DNA from: Hesseltinella vesiculosa
Taxonomy: Eukaryota > Mucoromycota > Mucoromycetes > Mucorales > Cunninghamellaceae
Direction: 5' to 3'
DNA length: 64,000 nucleotides
NCBI GenBank assembly: GCA_002104935.1
Contig: MCGT01000004.1
Location: forward strand, 62,001-126,000
The position numbers and the translations under genes were made by a program. The notes under the pieces are model-generated. The model was not told the DNA's origin. It ran no database searches and worked only from the letters and a program-made list of their open reading frames with translations. Below, in pieces: positions 7,640 to 56,731 of this stretch; position 1 is the first letter of the stretch, and every line of letters begins with the position of its first letter.

Positions 7640-8356
7640 TCTCTCAACTAAACTGCTTTATCTGTCGCCGTTCATTCTCTGTGGCGCAAAAACTGAGAAA
7701 CCATATTTTTAGCAATCATGGTATTGACCTTGAGCCACGTAAACATGGCTTAAGGCGATTCAACACTGAGCAATTCATGTTTATAAAAAAAACTTCTGAT
7801 GCCTCACATGCTTTGGTGGAAGTACACTACGAATGCCCATCATGCCTTGATCATTATGCCACGATGGATGAATTGAAAGCCCATTTGACCGCGCATATTA
7901 GAAAGAAACAAGATAACAAGAAAAGGAACGCTTCTGCTTCAACAAGTGGTGAGCTTGGTGTAAGTGAGCCATTTATTTCCCATGTGTTTTTTTTATTTGC
8001 TCATTCAACCTCACTTTTTTGTTGCATTTGCAGCAGCCAAGCAGCAGTGCAGATGGCAGCGCCGTCTCGATCAAGGTATCCTTGATTAACCTTGTTCTTT
8101 CGCTCAAATAATTCTTGACGTTTAGAAAGCGAAAATACTGGTACCTTTTCATGACCCTCTCTTGGAGATACAAGAGCCAACGGAACCCGGGAGTGAGGAT
8201 GATGGTGAAATTGATCTGCGTACTATGCTCTTTCTTTGGGCCTATCGTCTGGCAAGTTTTATGTTATTCATTAAAAAGAATAGGAGTCATCCGGAACTCA
8301 CGGAAATGGCTGTTACACGGAGTAAAAAATTGCCCAATAAATCTTCTTTTTGGTAA
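7640..8356 (+). CDS. Small two-finger C2H2 zinc-finger protein, 5' end uncertain
   Basis: Three exons can be joined in phase: up to 7959, 8034-8075 and 8126-8356. The first carries two C2H2 fingers: CFICRRSFSVAQKLRNH with a second His four residues on, and YECPSCLDHYATMDELKAH...H. The middle is Ser/Lys-rich; the last exon is acidic then hydrophobic (EIDLRTMLFLWAYRLASFM) and ends KKLPNKSSFW. No ATG lies close upstream in frame, so either an upstream exon was missed or the 5' end was lost. The frame is open back into the transposase relic, probably by chance. The last exon contains one arm of a 60-nt inverted repeat. Function unknown; possibly a mobile-element passenger. Confidence 0.5.
8273..8332 (+). 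repeat. Arm 1 of a 60-nt inverted repeat
   Basis: Matches the reverse complement of 8876-8935 with a single mismatch. It encodes KNRSHPELTEMAVTRSKKL in the zinc-finger gene's last exon. Confidence 0.9.
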
Positions 8357-8483
8357 TATCTTCTATCGTCACCTATCCGGGATTACCTCAATTCTTGTTT
8401 TAGCATCAGGCTGTGACTCCTGGAACCAAAAAACAACGAAAAAAAAACGGGATTTTTTTGTCTTCCCTTTTTTTTTTACTTCA

Positions 8484-8867
8484 CTACATTCGCATGGTGT
8501 ACCTGGAGCTCTCTCTCCAAGTGCGTGGTGTATTATTCGCTCTCCTTGAGCGGCGAACTTCTTCCAGGTAACGATCAATGTTACCAGACGCTAAGGCTTC
8601 ATCGAAATGAGGGACTTGGTCGGTGGGCAAGTGCTGCCGCAGTTGACTTGCCAGTCTTTCAAAGTAGGCATCCTCGTTAGCACTGAGCTGATTAATCTGC
8701 TCTCGCTGTCGGCCATTTCGCGATAGTCGCTGGTTACTTCGAGCTTCCTCATTATTGATTTGCTCCAGGCGACGGAGAAGCGATTGACGTTCCTGTGCCC
8801 AGCCTTGTTGCTGACCCCTAATAGCCTGGTCGTCGTCATCCAAGGTGCCTCCTTTCCATTGATTCAC
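8484..8867 (-). CDS. Hypothetical charged helical protein fragment
   Basis: A 127-codon frame starting MNQWKGGTLDDDDQ, rich in Gln/Glu/Arg with heptad-like spacing (LLRRLEQINNEEARSN; FDEALASGNIDRYLEEVRRS). It looks like real coding sequence, with an amphipathic helix and balanced codons, but no family was recognised. It may splice on at a GT near 8500. It lies between the arms of the inverted repeat, on the strand opposite to the zinc-finger gene, which suggests that an inversion or an inverted duplication rearranged a former gene. Confidence 0.4.
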   Translation of the reverse strand: MNQWKGGTLDDDDQAIRGQQQGWAQERQSLLRRLEQINNEEARSNQRLSRNGRQREQINQLSANEDAYFERLASQLRQHLPTDQVPHFDEALASGNIDRYLEEVRRSRRANNTPRTWRESSRYTMRM

Positions 8868-8875
8868 GCATTGTT

Positions 8876-8935
8876 CAATTTTTTACTCCGTGTAACAGCC
8901 ATTTCCGTGAGTTCTGGATGACTCCTATTCTTTTT
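8876..8935 (-). repeat. Arm 2 of a 60-nt inverted repeat
   Basis: On the minus strand this copy again encodes KNRSHPELTEMAVTRSKKL, followed by NNA and a stop. One mismatch to arm 1. Further out on the minus strand (9035-8950) there is another coding-like stretch (TKQPRQQALIHAMLAKELSD). Confidence 0.9.
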
Positions 8936-9209
8936 TTATTTCATTAGTGTTTTAATCACTTAACTCTTTGGCAAGCATAGCGTGAATCAAAGCCTGTTGA
9001 CGAGGCTGTTTAGTCTTGGTTACAGTGGTGTTTTTATTTTTGATGTCGCATGTCTGATATTGAGTTGCCGCCCGGAGTTATAAATTTCAGGGTAAGTTTA
9101 GTATGCTGGATTGGGTCAGTGGCGGGAACACCTGCATTTTCAATCGCCTTTTTTTCTCAGGCGGATTCGCGTTTTCCTTTTTTTTTCTTCTCACTCAATC
9201 TTGCTTGAC

Positions 9210-12200
9210 ATGACAATTGAAGTACACAGATTTAAACAAAAGCAACTGAGGGAAAGGAGAGAAAGAGAAATCCAACAAGAAGATGAAGAAAGAGGTAATG
9301 TCCTACACAGACATAAGAAGCAAAATGACTCATGTTTACTGAAAAAAGGTGCCAAGCGGCAGCGAACTGGCCGTTCAGCAAGCACATCCAAAAGAAAGCA
9401 AGGACTGGATGAAATAATGGATAAACAGGCTGCTCGAGCTGCATTCCAAGCAAGTTTACCAAAATACGGTGCTCCCCGTCCATGCACAACTTGTCTGAAC
9501 GAAGCTTTTAAACTCGAAAAGCAAGGCGACCTTGACGCAGCAGAAATACGACGTGCCGCTGCCAAGACCCATTCAAAGTCGTCGAGCTCAAAATGTCCAT
9601 CTTATAAGCCTCGGAAACGTGTGTTGACAAAACGAAAGCTTGGCGGCACCACCCGCCAATACACCCTGAAACATGGCTTAGATACGCTGATCCGACGTCC
9701 CACCGATGACGTTGACCCCACCTCGGCACCCCCTTCAGCCTTGGTCGACGCCGTGGCTACACTTGCAAGACACAATCGGGATATCACAATCATGTCACAC
9801 CTGTTCATTCGACACTATGTGACAACCATCCTGAATCGACCAAGCCCTGTGATTCCACCAGCCATGTTTACCCAAATTTTCTTCACGTCTGTCTTCCAGC
9901 TGCTTATGGGGAATCAAATCACGAACAAGAAGGTTATGTCAGAAGAATTCCGACAAGACATTGAAACGACTTTTGCAGCATTCTGTGCTACCAATGGTCC
10001 CTCTGGAAGTGGTCCGCTGTGCCCCCCTGTGTCGTCCGCTGTGTCCCGCCACCGACCCATTACATTTGGCTTGGCCCTTGCATCGACCGCCATCCAATGT
10101 TCAAAAGATTGGAGAAACCTTGTGGTCGAAGGAGTTCCCGACTGTTTTATCAAGTTCATATCGACAAAACTACGAAGGCTTGTACCTGTAAGTTTGGTGT
10201 CAAGTTGAGGGAACTAGAAATAAAAAGAAAGCGCTTGTCTTACTTTTTTTTTACGCAGGAACTGAAGCATGGTCACGCTAGATCATATGCGCTTTATGTC
10301 TATGATACCATCGCACAGGACCCCAAATTTGCACCTGAACTTCCCAACATAGCAAGCATGAGTGCCGATTTGAAAGCCAAGGTCCAAAGCAAGTTTGACT
10401 ACGTGATCAATGACTGTAACGCCCTATTGGACCCGACTATCCGTCAAATCCAGAACGAATTGCAAGATATCCGAGCTTTGGCTGAGGAGCGGCAACGACA
10501 CCAAGCTTTCCAACGAGCATGCCGCGCGACACCTTCCACCGCCAATCCAGCTGCCTCATCCTCATCCTCGTCCAATGTTCCACCGTCACTGGCGTTTGAT
10601 CCTTTGACGTCAGCCGACATTGACTCAGAAGACGCGATGTCGTTGGATATGGCGGAATCCATCTCAACGGCGATTGGCCTGGATCACCTGTACCTTCAGT
10701 CCATTGCTGGATCTGACTCCGACAATGCCAGTAGCATAGCACCTGACGCTTTGGATGATCAGCACGACGCTATCACGAACAACAGCAACAACAATGTGAT
10801 GCTGACAACCGCAACTCTGTCACGATGGCCCCATCTCTTTCTACCAATCATGGCGAATGTGCTCCAAACGTTGGAGTCGTGGAACAACCACGACAACGAG
10901 TTACCTCCTGCCCTCCAAACCGAAGCCTCATTATCCTGGGTCCGCCATGTGCTTTCTGAAGTTCCCGATTGGAAAAAAATCGGCCACCAAAAACGAACAA
11001 GGCTTGTGTCGGCAATAGCAAAGGTGATCAACGACAGTTCTACCCCTTTTGATGCAAGAAAGCTACCCCGGTCCTTTGATGCTGAATCGCGCGACATCAT
11101 CAAAGGCCTTGTGGAAAATGCCAAACGACAGCTGAATGAAGGTTCATTTGCCCCAGCCACCTACCTGTACAGTCCTCCGTCACGTCTCTTTCCCTTGCTC
11201 CCAGTCCCAAGCTTTCGTCTACGTTTTGTCCGCATCAATTCATCAACCATGGGGACGCTCTTGAATCATTTTGGTATCAAGCCACCCCTTGCCTGTCCAA
11301 GCGTTGGACCTCCTGTCGAAAATGCTTCCGAGCCACTGGACTCGCCTCACAAAAACTTTGACCTCCTTGATCTTTCAAAGTTTAAGAAGTAAACCACAGA
11401 AGATGAGGGGGGGGGGAAAAAACAAAGCACTCACTTTTTTTTTGAACAAAGTCGAGGTGTGTTTGAGGACTCCATCATGTCCGATGGCCATTCTGTTTCA
11501 GTGACCTTTAAGAAACTGAAGCCTATCGACCAAGAAGAACCTCTTTCTCTGGAAGACATCAATGCGGATGATTTGGCTGATTGTCGGGTATGGGGCGTTG
11601 ACCCTGGCGTTGGACAAATTTTTGTTGCTGTAGACGGCTCTGATCCATCGGTCTACGACGTTGAAGGAGCCATGGCCTCTGACCCTCCGCATGAAATTCG
11701 ACGCTACTCCTCCAAGGAGTATTTCCATAATGCAGGCTTCCACAGGACCAACCAACGGATCCGTGACCTCAAGTCTCAGCATGGCATCGACACCTTGGAA
11801 AGCACGATCCCCTCCCCCTGCACCATGGACCTATCAAAGTTGGATCTGTATACGAAGGCTGTCCTGGAACGAGCTCAACTACTGAAAGATTTTTACGCTG
11901 AACATCTGCCACCTCTTCGATTCCTGAACTACAGAGGCCGCCAGAAAACTGATGGGGAACTCGTCAATATCTTCTTGACAGGTGGTAACAAGTATGGACG
12001 ACAGAGCGACCGTGAACTGGTAGATCTTACTGTGCCAGAAGGAAATGTGTCAATGCAATCTCCTCAAGAAGAGCAAGTTGATATGGACGCATATGAGCAT
12101 GATGGCCCACATGTTGCTACGACAGAATCAGCACTCCCTTTGGCCTTGTCACCTGTCCTTTCCGCTCCACCGCATGCAACATCACAACCGAGCGTGGGCA

Positions 12201-13314
12201 CCAACCCAACAAGTCGCGCCACTGCCATTGCCACTGCACATGGCGCTATCGCTATCGCTATTGCGGAAGGCTACGCCCCCTCGATCAGAATTTCTATCGA
12301 TAATCCCCAGCCCCAAGAGCCAATGCAAACTGGGACCCGAGCGACAACAACCTTGCAGCAAGTTACTCCTGCGATGCCATTGATCTCTACCCAGCCTTCA
12401 GTCCAAATGCGCCATGGAAGTGCCACTAGCATTGCAACTTCACAAAACGCGGTTGCCATTGCCATTGCTGGCAACCGTGCTCCCTCGATCAACATATCCT
12501 CTGCTAGCACCACGTCACATGACTCTTTCCCGATTGAAAATGACAACCCTTCGGTGTCGATCATTGGCACGTGTTCTGAGCCCAGTATTGCTGTAGATGT
12601 GGGTGACACTGCATTCGCCTTAGCCTCGACCTCACCACTGTCGTTTCAGGAGCTACAGCCAATGATCGATTCGCCCTCCCGCCGGCGTAGCGAAACTGCT
12701 CCAAGCCCACATGCACCTCAGAGTTTCGCAAATGAACCTGATGTCTTGACCGACGTGAATACCCCACCACCCCTTCCTCGGTATGTTTTGATGTAGTTCA
12801 TCCTTGAACGACAACTGATATATTTTATAGACAAAAATGGAGGAAGCAGGAATTTGTTCCAACACCAAAGAGCAAGGTAACCCTGGTTTGCTTGGGTGAT
12901 GGTAAATTTGGTCGTCGTTCGTTTCAAGGCCATCCCAGCGGCCTGGCCGCCCGCTTGAAGAAGCTGCTCCAAAGAGCAGATCGAGAAGATCGATTGGTGT
13001 TGTTGTCCACGGACGAAAAGTGGACATCTCAAGTGTGTAGCAAGTGTGGCCGTCAAGGTTGCAAGCCCTTGGAGACAGCCGGATCAAAGTTGCATTCTGT
13101 CACTGTTTGCGGTAACTGTGGACAGCTTTGGCAACGCGATTCGAACGCTGCTCGAAATATATTATCCATCGCTCGCCTTGCCATGGAAGGTGCCTCCCGT
13201 CCCCAAGTCCTTTCGGAGAAGTCAACCAACCAAGGTGGCAGTGGCCCCGGCCCGATGGACAACCCTCCTCCTACCACTTCCCCCATTGTGCATAATGAAA
13301 ATGTACAAGCTTAG
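9210..13314 (+). CDS. Fanzor (eukaryotic TnpB-like) RNA-guided nuclease, apparently intact
   Basis: Four exons (9210-10187, 10259-11388, 11452-12780, 12831-13314) join in phase to 1306 residues. In order: basic NLS-like stretch (about 45-63); zinc motif with C92, C95, H121 and C129; a long helical region; the DGHSVSVTF strand; RuvC-I WGVDPGVGQIF (D753); YSSKEYFHNAGFHRTNQRI; a low-complexity Ala/Ile-rich insert (about 895-1120); the glycine motif LGDGKFG (D1169) with GHPSG; STDEKWTSQVCSKCG with E1208; zinc ribbon Cys 1215, 1218, 1239, 1242; and RuvC-III WQRDSNAARNI (D1249). Fanzors are homologues of TnpB that cut DNA guided by an RNA encoded near the gene's 3' end. No stop or frameshift is seen, so it may be active. 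It is longer than many Fanzors because of the insert. The start was chosen after a pyrimidine leader; an in-frame ATG at 9111 is less likely. Confidence 0.88.
12185..12508 (+). repeat. Duplicated Ala/Ile-rich segment inside the Fanzor gene
   Basis: Two imperfect copies (12185-12301 and 12392-12508) encode QPSV...AT-IAT--A-AIAIA----APSI-IS. The copies are about 207 nt apart and diverged at the DNA level. They fall between RuvC-I and the GDG motif of the Fanzor protein. Confidence 0.75.
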
Positions 13315-14025
13315 GGCTTTCCCGTAAGTGCTTTTTTTTTTGACGAAAGACTCACCATCCTCTCCCTCTTTTCTCCTTTATCATGGATCTAATCCATTAT
13401 TTGGTGAGTGCAATATCTCATTGCCCTCATATTCTAAACTGACGCGGATATTTTCTTCTTTTGTAGCCTCCTGTACGACTTTTTACTTTTCAAATCTTTT
13501 TTTTTTTGGAAATACAGTAGTCTTGGTTGGGTTTTTGGGGGGTTCCTGTCGGTGTTTAAAACCCAAATTCGGAGGTGATTTTCCTAAATTTGGCGTTTTT
13601 TTTAGCAGAGCCTGTTCCTAGAGCATGTCGCTGGGCGGAAGTTAAATATGGCAATCCAATTTTTTTTTCACCTGTGCGCCTGATGTTCAGACCCAAACCA
13701 GAACACGGCGAGTCTTTGAAAATTCCCGCGGGCCAAGGAATAGGATGTTTTTACATTTCTAGCATGATTTTTGGTCTTGAGAAATTCCCGAGTCATTCCC
13801 AGCAACTTGTCTTTTGGTATGTCAGCCAATAATACAAATAAATACTGTCAAACGGCACTGTGGGGAGAGGTCATGTGCTCATTGAGGACTGGCGAAGGAG
13901 GCATTTATTACTTTAAAAAAAATAGACGGTGCACTACTATTACATGATGGAGGGTGAATAAAATTAAAAAAAAGGAGGCAGTTACAAGCAGCAGGCATTA
14001 GAAGAAGAAGCAAGGGGGAAAAAAT
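13315..14025. other. Intergenic: Fanzor 3' flank
   Basis: Downstream of the Fanzor stop lies the region where a guide (omega) RNA and the element end would be expected. It holds a TACAGTAGTC sequence at 13513 resembling a Tc1-type terminus and an imperfect hairpin at 13563-13593 (CCAAATTCGGA pairing with TCCTAAATTTGG). No matching second terminus was found by eye. No coding gene recognised. Confidence 0.4.
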
Positions 14026-15235
14026 CTACTCGTCATCATCCTCCTCACCCTCACCACCTTCTGCATCTTCGCCCTTTTCACCCTTGGTCACGTAAGTTTC
14101 GCAGGGAATGGAGGTGACCTGTCTGGATTTCAACTCCACCACGCTCAGGCTGCGACCATAGACGCAGCCACTGTCAAGACCGATAGAATAGGACTGCATT
14201 AGCAAACCCTCCTTGGCAGAGTGACCATAGTAGACCGTCATCTTCTCGCCTGCGTTATCTTCTTGCTCTTCATTCCACAATGTAGACCAAGTAGTACCAG
14301 CCTTTTTTTTCTTGGTGGGTTCGCCGTCGTCGTCGATGACACGCATGGTCATGGAGTAAAAAGGCTCTTGCTGGGTAAGGTCGGTGATGCCTGGGTCCAG
14401 ACCGGCATGGACAATCACAGAGTTGTTCCATTGAGGTAGGTACATGATGGCAGGACATGACGATAAATAGTCATAGTCTTCCTTGGAAATGTTGCTAAAA
14501 ATAGTAAAAAAAAAAAAAAAAAAAGGACGATGGTAAACATCGCAATGCACAAAGAGTGGCGCGTTCCATTTTTTACCTAGCGATGCGTGCATGGTAGTTT
14601 GAGAGTTTCAAATGATCAATTACATCGTCACCTTCGGGGAGCATGCCATCGGTGGTATCATCTTCAGGATCGGCAGCAGAGCCAGTTTGGAGCTCGTAGG
14701 TTTTGAAACGGATGACCTTGTCGTCGTGGTTGCCACGGACACACCAGGCTCCCAGCTCCCGTGCACGGCGGACGACGCCAATGCTGTCTGGGCCTTTGGC
14801 CACGAGATCCCCGGCCAAGATCAGTAGGTCATTGCTGGGGTTGAATTGGATTTCCTCGATCAGCTGATTGAACTCGTCGAGACAGCCATGAATATCACCC
14901 ATGATAAAGACACGCTCTCGGTCCGGTAGAGCACCGTCTTTGCGGACTTCCAGGCGTTTGAGGTTGGCATACTTTGAAATGGCTTGGGCATTGACCAGAC
15001 CATCTCCATTGCGGTAGATAGTGACGTCTTGGTCGGCAGGATTGTCGTTGGCGGCACGGTAGTTTTTTCCCGTCGTTTTCTTCTTCTGAATGATCACCAC
15101 TGTCACTGCAATGACCACCACAATGGATGTCAGTGCTGTCAGACCAATGAGCCACCATAACCACCGAGGCCGTTGCTTTTTTTCTTCGCCTTGCGAAAGA
15201 GGTGAGAGGTTTTCTTTCGTATCTTCGACTGTCAT
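14026..15235 (-). CDS. Membrane-anchored PPP-family metallophosphatase (Ppn2-like)
   Basis: Two exons (14577-15235 and 14026-14494) give 375 residues. After a charged N-terminus there is one transmembrane helix (WLWWLIGLTALTSIVVVIAV), then the calcineurin-like metal motifs GDIHG, GDLVAKGPDS, GNHDDKV and, in exon 2, YGHSAKEG. The tail is acidic (EGEEDDDE). This single-pass architecture with a lumenal phosphatase domain resembles yeast Ppn2, a vacuolar endopolyphosphatase, which suggests polyphosphate turnover; substrate is inferred. The intron has an A/T tract beside the 3' splice site. Alternatives are other bacterial-like PPP phosphatases. Confidence 0.82.
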
Positions 15236-16103
15236 GAGGAAAAGAGAAGGTCGAACTCTTCAGTGGTATCGAAACAAAAGGTGAAGCAAAGGGGAGATAG
15301 CCAAATGAGATAAAGAGGAGAGGGAAAAAAATAGAAAAAATAAACGAAGGAAAAAAAAAATCTGAAGGAAAAAATTAAAATGGCCATGACCGCGTCCCTT
15401 GAGATGCAAAAGATATCGATTGTTCATGATTGAATTTCCGAGGCATTTCTTGATGATGATAATCCAGCAAGGTCCAAATTCAGCTCATCCATTGGTTTCC
15501 ACCGTGTTTTCTGTTTGAATCATTCAAAATCCATCGACGTTTTGCTTTGCCTTGTTTCAAACAGCGCCCGCCTCAAAACGGCAGGTGAGGCTTTCATTTT
15601 TGGGCAAGCATGAAGAGTGAAAAATTGCGCAAGGAGGATCAATAGCGTCAATTGCAATGGAAGCCGAGGGTAGCAGCATTCCTTTTTGGCAATGTCCTAT
15701 TTTTCGGAGCGAGGGCGATTATGCAAAAAAAAAAATAAGAAAAAAAACGGTTAAAGAAGCGGCAAATGCCATGTGTAAAGAAAAAAAAGAATGCGTATGC
15801 ACGTGTATGGCTATTGAAGGCTTAATCATCCAAGCCGAAAAGCGATCCAGGTAAAAAAGGAACGAGTAGAATGCATCATGATACAGTATTGCGTCGCTGA
15901 CATTTTTTTACAGCCATGCATTGGTTTATTATGATTGGTCAGTCGGAGCCATTGGCCAATGGCTGGCCAAAAAAAAAAAAAAGACGCAGGCGCTTCTTTG
16001 TCTTTTCACACTCGCCTTTTTTTTTTTAATCACTTCATCCTCATCCTTGTTTTTCCTCCACATTCTCTTTTTGTTTCGTCTATTTACTTGATAGTTTGTT
16101 CGA
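15236..16103. other. Intergenic: divergent promoter region
   Basis: Lies between the divergent phosphatase and FHA-RING genes. It contains several CCAAT-box motifs in both orientations, the clearest cluster at 15935-15965 (GATTGGTC...CCATTGGCCAATGG), then a T/C-rich leader before the ATG at 16104. Confidence 0.55.
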
Positions 16104-52511: not shown

Positions 52512-55500
52512 CTAAACAATAGGAGAGGTTTGGGGGCGTCGGCGCGGGCAAAAGGCCAGGGGGCGTTGCTTGTGTTGGAAAAAGTGCTGGCCAATAGACA
52601 CCATGTTGCAGGCCGCCATCACATCCCGGTCAAAGGTGACATTACAAGAACTGCAGCGCAAAAGCCCATACACCTTGCTACCATTCATGGCTGGGCTCTT
52701 CGTTGGGCCATGGCACGTGGAGCAGAGCTGTGTTGAAGAAAAGAATGAGTCGCCTCGTTGCTGTTGACACACCTCTTTTTTTTTTTTACTCACCTTGCTT
52801 GTTTTGAACTCATTTAGCGAGATAACAGAAAGCTTGCCCTGTCGTTGCCGGTCTTCCAATTGGTTGAACACCAGGGAGGACGAACCAGGAAGTTTCTTTT
52901 TCAGAGGGGTGGCGACCTTCCGGCCCTTGAGGCCATCACCAAAGAGGATCAATGGAATTCTTTGGCTGGGGTATTTTGTCACGCCATGGCGCATTCGTGT
53001 GGTTGGTTTCATTGGTGGCGCAGGTCTACCATTGGAAAAAAAAAATCAGCACCACCTGGTGGACCTCCTGAAAGCCGTGATGACTTGCCTCTTTTCTTCC
53101 ATTTGGCTGATCAGAGTAATGCGGAGGTCATGGTCCAGGTCGCGTTGGGTGCGCATGGTTTGCAATGTTGCAACCAAAGAATCCATCGCCCCAGGTAATG
53201 TCGAGCCAGCACAGCAGTTCACTAAATCTTCGATTTTCTTTATAGCAATATCCATTGTGGCAAGGTGTTCCACCATCGCCTTCTTGGCCATGCTGATCTT
53301 GAAGGCCTTTTTCTTCCGAGCTTTCTTCTGACGCTTGCGCCGATTGCGGTGGGTACGCCTACGGTGGCAGCGCACATTGCGCTGGGACTTGACATACTTC
53401 TTGGACAGGCCAGCAAGAACACTGGCAATGTATGCCACGCCCCGCTGACGCCCTCTGTAAGCATTGAAGCGGTCGATGGAGTGCTGGAGGCCATAAAAGT
53501 CGAAAAAGAGCGGGAGACGATCAAGCAGGGACTGGATTCGTGTGGCATATTCAGTGGGGCTGGTGGTTCGGTGAGAAGGGATAGCGGCTTCCATCTGATG
53601 GAACGGTATTTGCTGACCTCGGAAGGAGTATGTTGTGGAAACCTTGCGCCGTTCCAATTGTTGGATTCGTCGCTGCGTTCCACATTGCGAGCGGTATTCC
53701 TTTGCAGAAACTTTGATGACTCGGTAAGGCAGATGGTGAGACTGGGGGATCGGGGTGGTAGGATCGGTATCGTCAATCATAGGCATAGAGAGATTTCCTT
53801 GCTCCATATCAGTGCTGCCAGTGGCGTTGTCAAAGTCCTGATGTTGATGTGCAGGCTGAGCAGTACGAATAGGACATGGGGTATCGATAGCCATTTGTTC
53901 TTCGTCATTATCGTTATCGGGTCCACCTTCACCTGCAGAGTCTTCGTCATCCCGGGTTTCTGGGAGCATAGAAAGTGGATAAGGTGTGCCATAGCTTCCG
54001 GTGACGATGGCACGGCGGCCTGGATCGACGGCGACCATGTCGAAGCGTTCTACCAGTTCGGTATTCCAGTGGTCCAGGCTGGGCAGCTTCATCGTTGGGC
54101 GATGCGTGGTTGGCAAACGAATAAATTCAAAGCAGCACGAAACGCCATCACACCAAATGTGGCAAGCAAACAGTGGACGGTTGTATAGTATACCCTCAAG
54201 CATGTCCTGGACACTAGGTGAGAAGAAGAAGAAAAAAGTTGGAAGTTGTTCTTTTTTTTTTTTTTTTTTTTTGGTGTCTGCGAAACTTACCTCCCGTACC
54301 CAGGCCTGCCAAAGTCGAACTTCTCCATGTGGAACACCTTGAAAAACATGGGCAAGGCACGGATGAAAGCGGCGTCGCGTTCACCAGTGTTGTCGTTGTT
54401 TGTTTCAATGGCATCGCATTCGGCTAGATATTTGATCGTGTCGGGTAAGATGTGGATGAATCAGCGTCCAAAGTGAGGCTCAGGAAGGATGGTAAGCTTC
54501 GGGCATTTTTTGGGGTTGGCATTGGGCTGGCACTTGTATTGCTCGTAGTGCTTGTTGATGTTGATGTAGACAAGCAAGGCACTGCTGGGGTTTCGGGACA
54601 GGGCTGTCGACGTCAATTTGCCAACGTAGTGGGGTTTCAAGGCCAGTGTTTTCGCCTTCACACTGGCAATGGCCGCTTCTTCGGTAGACACACCAGGGAC
54701 ATTGCTTGTGGCCGATCCAGGTGTGACCCCTGATTGAGGATGGGAAGGTCTCTCTGCAAAGCTCGTGTAGATATCATCCACCTCCCGGTCAATGTGAGGG
54801 ATCTGAAAGAGACAAAAAAAAGTCAGAACATATCCCTTTTTGGTTTTTTTTTTTATAAAACCTACGCTGAGATCCGTGATGGCAAAGGAGAATCGAATAA
54901 ACTTCTTGACCTTTTTCTCAAAGTCGATCACCAAACAATTGGAGTAAGCTGTGGCAAGCGTTGACAAGCATGGCCCAAAAGTATTTGCATAGAATTTATG
55001 CGGGTGGTGGAAGTGAAGGCTGCGGTGATCAGCAGGAATGAGAAGGGCTGCATTGTCGAGCGGACCTATGCCTTGGTGGTCGTTGGGGCTGTAGGTGATG
55101 TTCGGGTGGTCACGGACAAACTGGTTCCAGTGAGGCAGGAAGGTGGGAGGAAGGCTTCGTAGGACATGAGCGTTGGTCATCCCTGGTCGACGCGGGTTGC
55201 GGGGATAGACCAGTTGCGAGATGGACAGGAGACCGTTCTGGCTGATCATGATGCTTTTAAAGTCAGACGGGTGGGTGAGAGCGAAATGGTTGAGAAATAA
55301 TTGGAGGCGGAAAAGGATGTTCTTGTTGCAGGCGCTGGTCGACTCTATGTTGCGCTTCAAAGCGAGCTTGAACGGTTGCCGGACGGCATCTTCAAAGCTT
55401 TTTTTTATCGTGTAGCGCTCACCACCTGGCATCATTTCGTTGATGTAATCCTTCTTGTTCATGCGATGGAAAGGACAGAGGCTGCTGGCAGACGAACAGT

Positions 55501-55843
55501 GTCCCATTTGGCCGCATGTGGCACACGGTCCCACAGCATCAGGATTTCGCTCATCTTCTTGGCGCTGCCGTCTCCCCTCGGCGCGATCGTTTTGTTCCTG
55601 TTGTTGGGCACGTCGTTGTGGCGTGGGCCCAGTTTCCCGTCCTACGAAGATGGGTAAAGAAAAATACATGATTGAAGTGATGGATGAATTACGTTTGCGA
55701 TAGACTTTTGCTTGTGACCAAACAGTGTAGAATTGTTCGGTGGTCATCCAAGCTTGGCCCAGCTGATCAGGCAACGCCCGGCGGAAATCTTCTTCAGGGA
55801 TGTGGCACAGAGTTACGTAGACGGATTGAAGAAGCGATTGCAT
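52512..55843 (-). pseudogene. Second, divergent Fanzor (TnpB-like) gene with one in-frame stop
   Basis: Six exons (55693-55843, 54866-55641, 54291-54802, 53065-54213, 52794-53025, 52512-52727) sum to 3036 nt, exactly in phase. Seen: a zinc motif CATCGQMGHCSSASSLCP (C90, C93, H98, C106); a long helical region; PEPHFGR-stop-FIHILPDTIKY; RuvC-I VAVDPGRRAIV (D543); YRVIKVSAKEYRSQCG; a basic helix (RRRTHRNRRKRQKKARKKK); FGDGLKG (D893); NEFKTSKLCSTC with E935; zinc ribbon Cys 942, 945, 965, 968; and RuvC-III DRDVMAACNM (D973/D975). The TGA at 54461-54463 (codon 423) interrupts otherwise continuous homology, since the other Fanzor has FRLRFVRIN at this place. The intron 53026-53064 is only 39 nt. 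It is likely inactive, although all catalytic residues persist and no other lesion is seen. Confidence 0.82.
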
Positions 55844-56731
55844 CAGGGAAAGATAGAAAATGAGCAGAAATAAAAAAAGATAGAAGAGCCTAGATAAACA
55901 AACAAAAAAAAGAATCGCGTGTTGCGGATGATCAAACCTTTGCCAATGCCAGCGAGAATGACCGCCAATCACATCCTTAGCCCTTTTTTTACAACGTACC
56001 TTTCTTTTTGAAATATAAAATGAAGTAGCGTACCATCAATGATAAAGGTAACACTCTTTGCCTATCTCTATTGCTCATTTTACTGTGCTTCTTAAATATA
56101 AACTTAACACTGCCTGGCAAACCAAACCACGAAAAAAAAAATTCAAGCCCCAGAGTCATCCTCAGTTAAACAAAAATGCTCCAGATTGAAGAAATTGCGA
56201 CTATCCATACCATTCTGTCTATTTCACGCACGCCTCTCCCTATGCCTTATCATGTTTGGTCTATAAATCCAAGGTGGTAAAAATAACATGCTTTGCAGAA
56301 AGATGCGACAAATTCTTTTCTGCAAGCGGATCATGTTAGTGCGCTTAGTAGCGCAAATGCAGCTGGCTATTTGATTGGTTGCGCTGTTTTTTCTTCTCAA
56401 ATTTTCCAAACAGTTATGTTTCGTGCAGGGAGACTTGCAACGGGAAATGACAAGTTCCCTTTTTGCATCACAGAAAAAAAAAAAGCAAGCCCGCACAAAC
56501 TGAAAAAAAGAAAAGCGTTCACAAGCGGGAATCCTTTGTTTATTTCTTCTTTTCTTTCCTTTTCCTTCTACTTTCACCCAAGCGCCCATCCCTTTGCTTT
56601 TTCTTTCGCCTAGTCGTTTTGCATTTCTTTACCGTGATCCTTCTCCATTGAAGATTCCATTTTTTTCTTCTTCTTCTTTTTTTTTTTTTTTTGCTTGCTT
56701 TCCTTATTAGCGTTATCTTGTAATTGTAGTC
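55844..56731. other. Intergenic: divergent region between Fanzor and INO80
   Basis: AT-rich; contains an ATTGG motif at 56375 and a long T/C-rich leader (56520-56700) before the INO80 start. No gene recognised. Confidence 0.5.

Follow-up and report, generated by a model that had tools for sequence, protein, structure and literature searches.

A probable full-length Fanzor1 in a non-autonomous, Tc1/mariner-like element of Hesseltinella vesiculosa, with a candidate omegaRNA hairpin at its 3' end

Fanzors are relatives of CRISPR nucleases that occur in eukaryotes. Fanzor1 (Fz1) nucleases carried by mariner-type transposons have already been described, as have Fanzors of Mucoralean fungi. Elements such as PUl-4 hold a Fanzor1 without a transposase between mariner-type ends at TA (PMC3627910, in the passages drawn on here). 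Among the solved systems are PpFz1 of Parasitella parasitica, also of the Mucorales (PDB 9cf0, 9cf1), with an omegaRNA of 75 nucleotides (nt) and an insertion of ~100 residues in the RuvC domain (PMC11423790); SpuFz1 of Spizellomyces punctatus (8gkh), encoded by a single open reading frame in a locus of ~2.1 kb, in which the stretch from stop codon to right end holds a 75-nt scaffold, with a 14-15-nt guide after it (PMC10432273); and GtFz1 of Guillardia theta (9cer), a far relative. According to the parts of PMC11423790 used here, the three solved Fz1 omegaRNAs have in common a stem-loop 1 (SL1) of seven base pairs. The subject of this report is a gene at 9210-13314 on the forward strand of a 64,000-nt stretch of Hesseltinella vesiculosa DNA (hereafter the window; contig C34:62001-126000 of a 27-Mb, 85-contig assembly), and we consider it likely from its sequence that this is a full-length Fanzor1 borne by a non-autonomous, TA-inserting Tc1/mariner-like element, with an inferred omegaRNA and mobilisation in trans.

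The gene itself is a new member of these described groups. Like PpFz1 it is the Fanzor1 of a fungus of this order and has a RuvC insertion, here of ~250 residues (the relative positions of the two insertions were not compared); unlike SpuFz1 it has introns and lies in an element of 4495 base pairs (bp); and it differs from PUl-4 in its host and in element ends that are imperfect inverted repeats. Its variant features are a scaffold-like hairpin far from the right end, right ends that resemble splice acceptors in three families, and a RuvC core that appears to have moved between lineages whose N-terminal halves had diverged strongly.

Identity of the protein and gene model

An earlier note on this DNA had spliced four exons (9210-10187, 10259-11388, 11452-12780 and 12831-13314) into a single open frame of 1306 residues containing D753 (in DPG), GDG at 1168, E1208 (in DEKWTSQVCSKC) and D1249 (QRD), and we reproduced this to the residue. 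In Fanzors the RuvC-I Asp lies in DPG and the RuvC-II Glu has moved to six residues before the zinc-finger CxxC (PMC10711439, in the part consulted). In the window protein D753 is found within GVDPGVGQ, E1208 occupies the repositioned place, and a C4 zinc ribbon followed by RD is indicated by the match to PF07282 together with QRD at 1247. A Pfam scan of the Fanzor exon frames and protein returned PF07282 only, at 42.5 bits on the exon 4 frame (numbering of the four-exon model) and 37.6 on the whole protein (Pfam cut-off 26.3).

For a more sensitive comparison, a profile was made of 11 distinct relatives, without the window protein itself. These came from two protein searches (five and seven proteins listed), both of which scored just the 8000 candidates with the most shared words, and originate from H. 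vesiculosa, Gongronella butleri and a metagenome; two of them, P0001 and P0002, are annotated H. vesiculosa proteins that match the window protein at 90% and 89%. Against the PDB, the profile matched SpuFz1 at 1.5e-9 and GtFz1 at 1.2e-5. In the SpuFz1 alignment all three catalytic positions correspond (Asp, alternative Glu, Asp), with the Glu and second Asp in a stretch that would not be significant by itself; in that of GtFz1 the DPG and the Glu before the zinc ribbon align and the third place is Asn. Single-sequence searches (exon 4; P0003) listed TnpB, Cas12 and TranC entries and no Fanzor entry. The fold was assessed through one relative, the 812-residue P0003, whose predicted structure has a mean predicted local distance difference test score (pLDDT) of 60.5, with the RuvC half largely below 50: all seven Foldseek matches at E <= 0.001 were Fanzors (PpFz1, the best, SpuFz1 and GtFz1), and the next match had E 0.15. 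Profile search and structure comparison, both put forward as checks by the earlier note, thus agree with the motifs, and its claim of an intron-bearing Fanzor with a rearranged Glu stands; we identify the protein as a Fanzor with high confidence. Solved structure matches that are all Fz1, together with mariner-like element ends, suggest that it belongs to Fanzor1 and not to Fanzor2.

Many alternative GT-AG combinations likewise keep the frame open, so the junctions cannot be deduced from openness of the frame. The GT and AG of the three introns are, however, kept at the same aligned places in sister copies of the element elsewhere in the genome. These introns of the earlier four-exon model are thereby supported, and its exon count probably has to be raised by one, as a further in-frame intron of 54 nt at 9295-9348 is likely. 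Among seven sister copies, only L011 and L016 have projected frames that are open apart from this stretch, which, if retained, gives them stops at codons 44 and 47; with it removed, neither frame has an internal stop. Its length differs by 1 nt in close relatives on contigs C19 and C14 and by 2 nt in one on C29, which is supporting and not decisive evidence, these copies being decayed elsewhere as well, and the alignment of the Gongronella protein P0004 continues through the junction that removal of the 54 nt would create. The preferred model, probably of five exons and 1288 residues, has its catalytic residues at D735, E1190 and D1231:

9210-9294, plus strand: exon 1 of the five-exon model (sister copies and relatives)
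9295-9348, plus strand: likely fourth intron, 54 nt, in frame (stops if kept; non-triplet length changes in three relatives)
9349-10187, plus strand: exon 2, with a CxxC...H...C motif at 9483-9596 (open frame)
10259-11388, plus strand: exon 3 (open frame, sister-copy splice sites)
11452-12780, plus strand: exon 4, with the RuvC-I Asp in DPG at 11600-11602 (aligned to the SpuFz1 Asp through the profile of relatives)
12020-12780, plus strand: low-complexity insertion in the RuvC domain, ~250 residues (~25 residues at the same place in P0003)
12831-13314, plus strand: exon 5 with stop codon, containing GDG (12895-12903), the zinc ribbon, the alternative Glu (13015-13017) and the RuvC-III Asp (13138-13140) (PF07282)

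No lesion interrupts the 1288 codons, as the earlier note had claimed of its own frame. Before 11388 the proportions of synonymous (pS) and nonsynonymous (pN) differences from L011 are 0.747 and 0.259, which, with the PF07282 match, indicates that the frame was kept under selection. The sequence thus points to an apparently intact, full-length Fanzor1 and a candidate nuclease.

The low-complexity insertion is common to P0001 and P0002. The CxxC...H...C motif near the N-terminus recurs in the metagenome relative P0003, in the G. butleri proteins P0004 and P0005 and in family B of the H. vesiculosa elements, and may be a zinc-binding motif of this lineage. P0004 and P0005 contain the N-terminal part and RuvC-I and end before GDG and the zinc ribbon, perhaps because their gene models stop at the hypervariable insertion. 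A candidate upstream coding exon at 9050-9091 (ATG...GTAAGT) was rejected: a one-base difference after GTCGCAT puts the window and its sister copies in different frames, and there is no join to the main frame.

The element, its copies and its mosaic RuvC core

Three features, the third with approximate edges, describe the element:

9023-13517, plus strand: whole element, 4495 bp, between TA at 9021-9022 and TA at 13518-13519 (ends shared with sister copies)
9023-9106, plus strand: conserved left end including GATGTCGCA, with a donor-like GTAAGT at 9092 (83-87% identity to seven sister copies in 80-bp matches)
11700-13030, plus strand: putatively exchanged RuvC core, near-identical to sister copies (pS and identity profile)

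TA, putatively duplicated on insertion, stands at both ends, as in Tc1/mariner insertions, and the ends themselves are of Tc1/mariner type (left CAGTG..., right ...GGAAATACAG). With a slash marking the element boundary, right ends in family A, that of the sister copies, read ATACAG/TA in seven of eight printed copies (L014 is altered) and left ends TA/CAGT in five of the eight (L012, L014 and L018 are altered). Family B has CAGTGTTTYC on the left and GGAAACACAG on the right; its right ends read ACACAG/TA in nine of ten copies (L026 differs), and its left boundaries TACAGTG in three of nine printed, with near forms in L020, L021 and L030 and none in L022, L024 and L028. A mirror image of the family B left end would be CACTG/TA, from which the real right end departs by the base that creates AG.

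At least 46 PF07282 matches are present in the genome (E <= 0.001). The seven sister copies (L011-L014, L016-L018) are 96-98.5% identical to one another, and the window copy matches six of them at 76-77% over ~4 kb and L014 in two pieces, at 65% and 84%; downstream of the conserved 80-bp left end the sequence has otherwise diverged from theirs. A DNA search found closer, incomplete relatives on C19 (98%), C29 (90%) and C14 (97%), which leaves the window copy as the sole complete member of its subfamily among the loci found.

On its coding strand the element has no long frames other than those of the Fanzor, and we found no DDE transposase of its own there (opposite-strand frames were not scanned); for this reason we call the element non-autonomous and mariner-like. 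DDE_3 transposase matches do occur in the genome. One of these lies beside a TACAGTGTTTCC end, at L057 373-1839, where a stop separates two open stretches (242 and 210 codons) that follow this end and have a DDE_3 match; this locus is a candidate relative of the mobilising transposase, and no matching right end was found within the 3.5 kb examined.

Identity to the sister copies is far from uniform along the element. In blocks of 100 bases it is 0.50-0.79 up to 11624 (0.43 for L014 in one block), 0.83-0.85 at 11625-11724 and 0.91-0.99 at 11725-13024, with one exception inside that range (0.83-0.88 at 12625-12724), and 0.57-0.91 thereafter. In comparisons with L011 and L016, the four successive segments bounded at 11388, 11700 and 13030 have synonymous differences of 0.75, 0.67-0.69, 0.08 and 0.42 and nonsynonymous differences of 0.26, 0.11, 0.03 and 0.11. 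The 5' two thirds of the gene is saturated at synonymous sites with respect to the sister copies, and the simplest reading of the profile is that the RuvC core was exchanged recently between lineages. The C19 copy seems to share the left breakpoint of this exchange, because its 98% identity to the window runs across 11700. In two further loci similarity is confined to the 3' portion, 1.7 kb of L029 being shared with family A and 1.4 kb of L028 with family B; the shared part is the nuclease end plus 3' noncoding sequence, and the 5' parts are without a match at the DNA level. This may reflect the same kind of exchange, or else truncation.

The 3' hairpin and the right end

The region around and beyond the stop codon contains the features on which the proposed omegaRNA is based:

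13286-13308, plus strand: hairpin 1, TTGTGCAT-loop-ATGTACAA, candidate omegaRNA stem-loop 1 (covariation in seven rows)
13309-13330, plus strand: possible hairpin 2 (GCTTA / TAAGT), with a donor-like GTAAGT at 13324-13329 (GTAAGT/GTAAGC in five families)
13404-13466, plus strand: intron-like unit GTGAGT...CTAAAC...TTTTGTAG (same layout in family B)
13508-13517, plus strand: right end GGAAATACAG after a T-run, resembling a 3' splice site, with the putative guide from 13518 (acceptor of P0001 in L017)

A hairpin with an A-rich loop is found in the region of the stop codon in five families (A, B, L015, L027 and L009), each time with a different stem, and is followed 12-15 nt further on by GTAAGT or GTAAGC. 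When seven rows are aligned, every cell of stem 1 is paired, and double-sided changes occur at five of its six pairs; for stem 2 the paired fraction of cells is 81%, and none of its pairs differs from the commonest one on both sides. The covariation score of stems 1 and 2 together is 0.504, compared with a shuffled mean of 0.230; it was reached by none of 500 shuffles, and slid controls scored at most 0.063. Another of the measures, the number of additional pair types, does not stand out, since 52 of 500 shuffles attain the observed value. RNAalifold, unaided, found stem 1, with double changes in six of seven pairs, and did not find stem 2. As the seven rows were picked by eye once the hairpins had been seen, these figures do not amount to an unbiased test.

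A search with a covariance model (R1), run on the window and on 39 of the 56 loci, yielded 25 matches at E <= 0.0011, every one at a Fanzor-family 3' end; the next three had E >= 1.7. Twenty-three of the matches come from families in the model and the other two are decayed relatives, L035 and L034 (which has an internal deletion); the match in the window, itself one row of the model, has E 3e-10. Further 3' ends were inspected at 22 places (20 loci, L035 and the second Fanzor of the window). Fourteen of them belong to family C, which has AACCC...GGGTT and then GCAAG; L049 has GTAAG, with the facing base changed too. R1 did not find family C in the sequences that it covered, so the case for this family rests on inspection and on a scripted test for a hairpin followed by G[TC]AAG, within 60 nt before to 80 nt after the stop codon. 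The test was positive in 7 of 13 representatives (the window, L010, L015, L027, L047, L049 and the window's second Fanzor), which are related and hence not independent, with a background of 0.2-2.8% in 1000 shuffles of each positive. It missed L009, because its GTAAG falls beyond the searched stretch, and L037, L052, L053, L054 and L055.

From the start of hairpin 1 it is 38 nt to GTAAGT and 232 nt to the right end. Between the window and the seven copies compared (L014, with its altered right end, left out; edges of the donor block one base late), identity is 0.94-0.95 in the hairpin and linker, 0.59 in the 40 nt before the end and 1.0 in the last 14 nt, 13506-13519 being identical across the seven. 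The coding sequence just upstream of the hairpin has 0.735 in the same comparison, and conservation of the hairpin is itself partly coding, as it overlaps the last codons. A T-run plus ACAG also ends families A and B on the right, and 13 of 14 family C copies end in TTTTTTTCCATAG or a close variant of it (L043 has AAG). By analogy with the solved omegaRNAs, we propose that hairpin 1 may be stem-loop 1 of an omegaRNA.

The intron-like unit has its counterpart in family B as GGTGAGTG...CTAAAC...TTTTCGTAG. Between the hairpins and the right end, at 13351-13409, fully complementary arms ACTCACCA and TGGTGAGT surround a small ATGGATCTAATCCAT hairpin, and the second arm contains the donor of the unit.

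Competing readings and neighbouring sequences

In the mechanism that we propose, hairpin 1 would serve as stem-loop 1, and a guide would be read from host DNA beyond the right end, from 13518 onward. The nuclease loaded with this RNA would cut matching DNA beside a TA-containing motif, for instance an excision site, which would favour keeping or recopying the element, and a transposase acting in trans would move it. A TA-containing target-adjacent motif (TAM) fits those known for Fz1, from which it is extrapolated: CATA and TTAA contain TA, and the PpFz1 TAM is ATN (PMC11423790, as far as drawn on here).

How such an RNA would reach its guide can be read in several ways. It may run unspliced for ~230 nt or more, starting at hairpin 1, including further stems and ending with the right end and guide, a reading to which we give appreciable weight, short of an even chance. 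GtFz1 provides a precedent, with 150 nt and extra stem-loops between SL1 and guide (PMC11423790, in part), and the 238 nt from 13280 fold somewhat better than their shuffles (z -1.86; 8 of 200 equal or better); yet the 40 nt beside the right end are the least conserved block and U-rich, and the length of the interior varies among families. Tentatively, the guide could instead be gained by spliceosomal splicing, the scaffold's last base being a 5' splice site and the transposon's last base a 3' splice site, so that hairpin 1 and ~15 nt would be joined from GTAAGT at 13324 to the CAG at the element's end. The ligated exon would then be the host DNA beside the insertion, the nuclease would be directed by host splicing to the site of its own insertion, and a stem CUUAC:GUAAG, by masking the donor, could act as a switch that determines whether the RNA is spliced. 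This exact junction is present in the public gene model P0001, which represents the L017 copy: from TTTCCC/GTAAGT it passes to GGAAATACAG/TATTTC and enters flanking DNA. In addition, GTAAG-like sequence follows the hairpin by 12-15 nt in families A, B, L015, L027, L009 and C, a T-run plus YAG closes families A, B and C, conservation is high in hairpin, linker and end and low in the 40 nt before it, and the 38 nt from hairpin start to donor stand beside the 75 nt of the PpFz1 omegaRNA (PMC11423790, in part) better than the 232 nt to the end.

There are several reasons why splicing remains a doubtful account. P0001 may be a mere prediction, and the copy that it comes from is frameshifted, with another frame at its end that runs past the family's stop (P0002, which derives from L014, terminates at the usual stop codon and is uninformative on splicing); pairing with CTTAC may explain why GTAAG is retained; a different intron-like unit, complete with an acceptor, is present in families A and B; in family C most copies have GCAAGA, a weak donor; and five of the script's misses (all except L009) show no combination of hairpin and donor. 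A splice site may likewise coincide with the transposon end in IStrons, which self-splice as group I introns (PMC4227781, in part), whereas splicing here, if real, would be spliceosomal; no Rfam match, and no IStron group I intron, was found in 9000-13800 up to E = 1. We found no description of a spliced omegaRNA among the listed titles and abstract openings of openly licensed papers, which is weak evidence of absence; 'splic' occurs in PMC11423790 only in a remark on cyclophilin and in one reference, and in PMC10432273 'intron' is absent and 'spliceosom' is confined to one reference ('splic' itself was not searched). If true, a guide RNA made by splicing would be a new way of programming an RNA-guided nuclease, and omegaRNA searches limited to the vicinity of the right end would miss such loci. 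It is rather unlikely that hairpin and splice-like sites are features of the mRNA, namely a 3' regulatory stem and, as in IStrons with the spliceosome in place of self-splicing, splice sites that soften insertions into genes. The hairpin does overlap or adjoin the stop codon, and a donor-like GTAAGT is present near the left end too (9092); but in place and size it is like SL1 of the solved Fz1 omegaRNAs (PMC11423790, in part), and its pairing is kept while the stem sequence changes.

Several observations weigh against an intact, mobile Fanzor1 element with an omegaRNA of this kind. TA/CAGT is missing at three of eight left ends, and the terminal inverted repeats (TIRs) are imperfect and weaker in the window than in family B. 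The P0003 model is modest (template-modelling scores to Fanzors just 0.23-0.33), and that of the close relative P0002 (pLDDT 43.2) was not used. Hairpin 1 sits 209 nt from the right end, unlike the scaffold of SpuFz1, which reaches the right end and guide. The putative guide (20 bases from 13518) has no second perfect match in the whole genome, and with 3 mismatches it has six hits, compared with four for the reversed control. Frames, finally, are broken in five of the seven sister copies, and truncation has affected the nearer relatives on C19, C29 and C14, as would be expected if the window copy too were recently dead and its frame open by chance. We regard this as improbable given 1288 codons without a lesion, intact landmarks, and an N-terminal part saturated in pS at a pN of 0.26, a pattern in which selection on the lineage and on this copy cannot be told apart. 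Domestication as a host gene with a cellular role, for which one could cite that the loci found include no other complete copy of this subfamily, is very improbable for a gene placed exactly between element ends and with sister copies at many places. A full-length Fanzor1 in a mariner-like element mobilised in trans is the reading that we prefer.

Similar sequence lies to the left of the Fanzor elements at L011, L020, L023 and L025, where a repeat with a mariner-like TIR at its end abuts the left ends of two families. Its orientation varies (L023 compared with L025), and at several of the places DDE_3 fragments lie a comparable distance away. Site-specific insertion was considered as an explanation of these flanks and rejected, because the right flanks differ; the repeat on the left contains the DDE_3 fragments. 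Directly upstream of the window's Fanzor element, a 66-bp inverted repeat at 8273/8935 was rejected as its terminal repeats; with 95% identity it bounds a separate element of ~663 bp (8273-8935) that has relatives elsewhere in the genome. On the other side, a gene on the minus strand at 14026-15259, with a calcineurin-like phosphoesterase domain, has its end ~0.5 kb from the right end of the element. The window contains a second Fanzor on its minus strand (52512-56035), a member of the multi-copy family C with DPG, GDG, NEFKTSKV and a zinc ribbon; it consists of several open stretches and has its own hairpin and the right end CCATAGTGGA.

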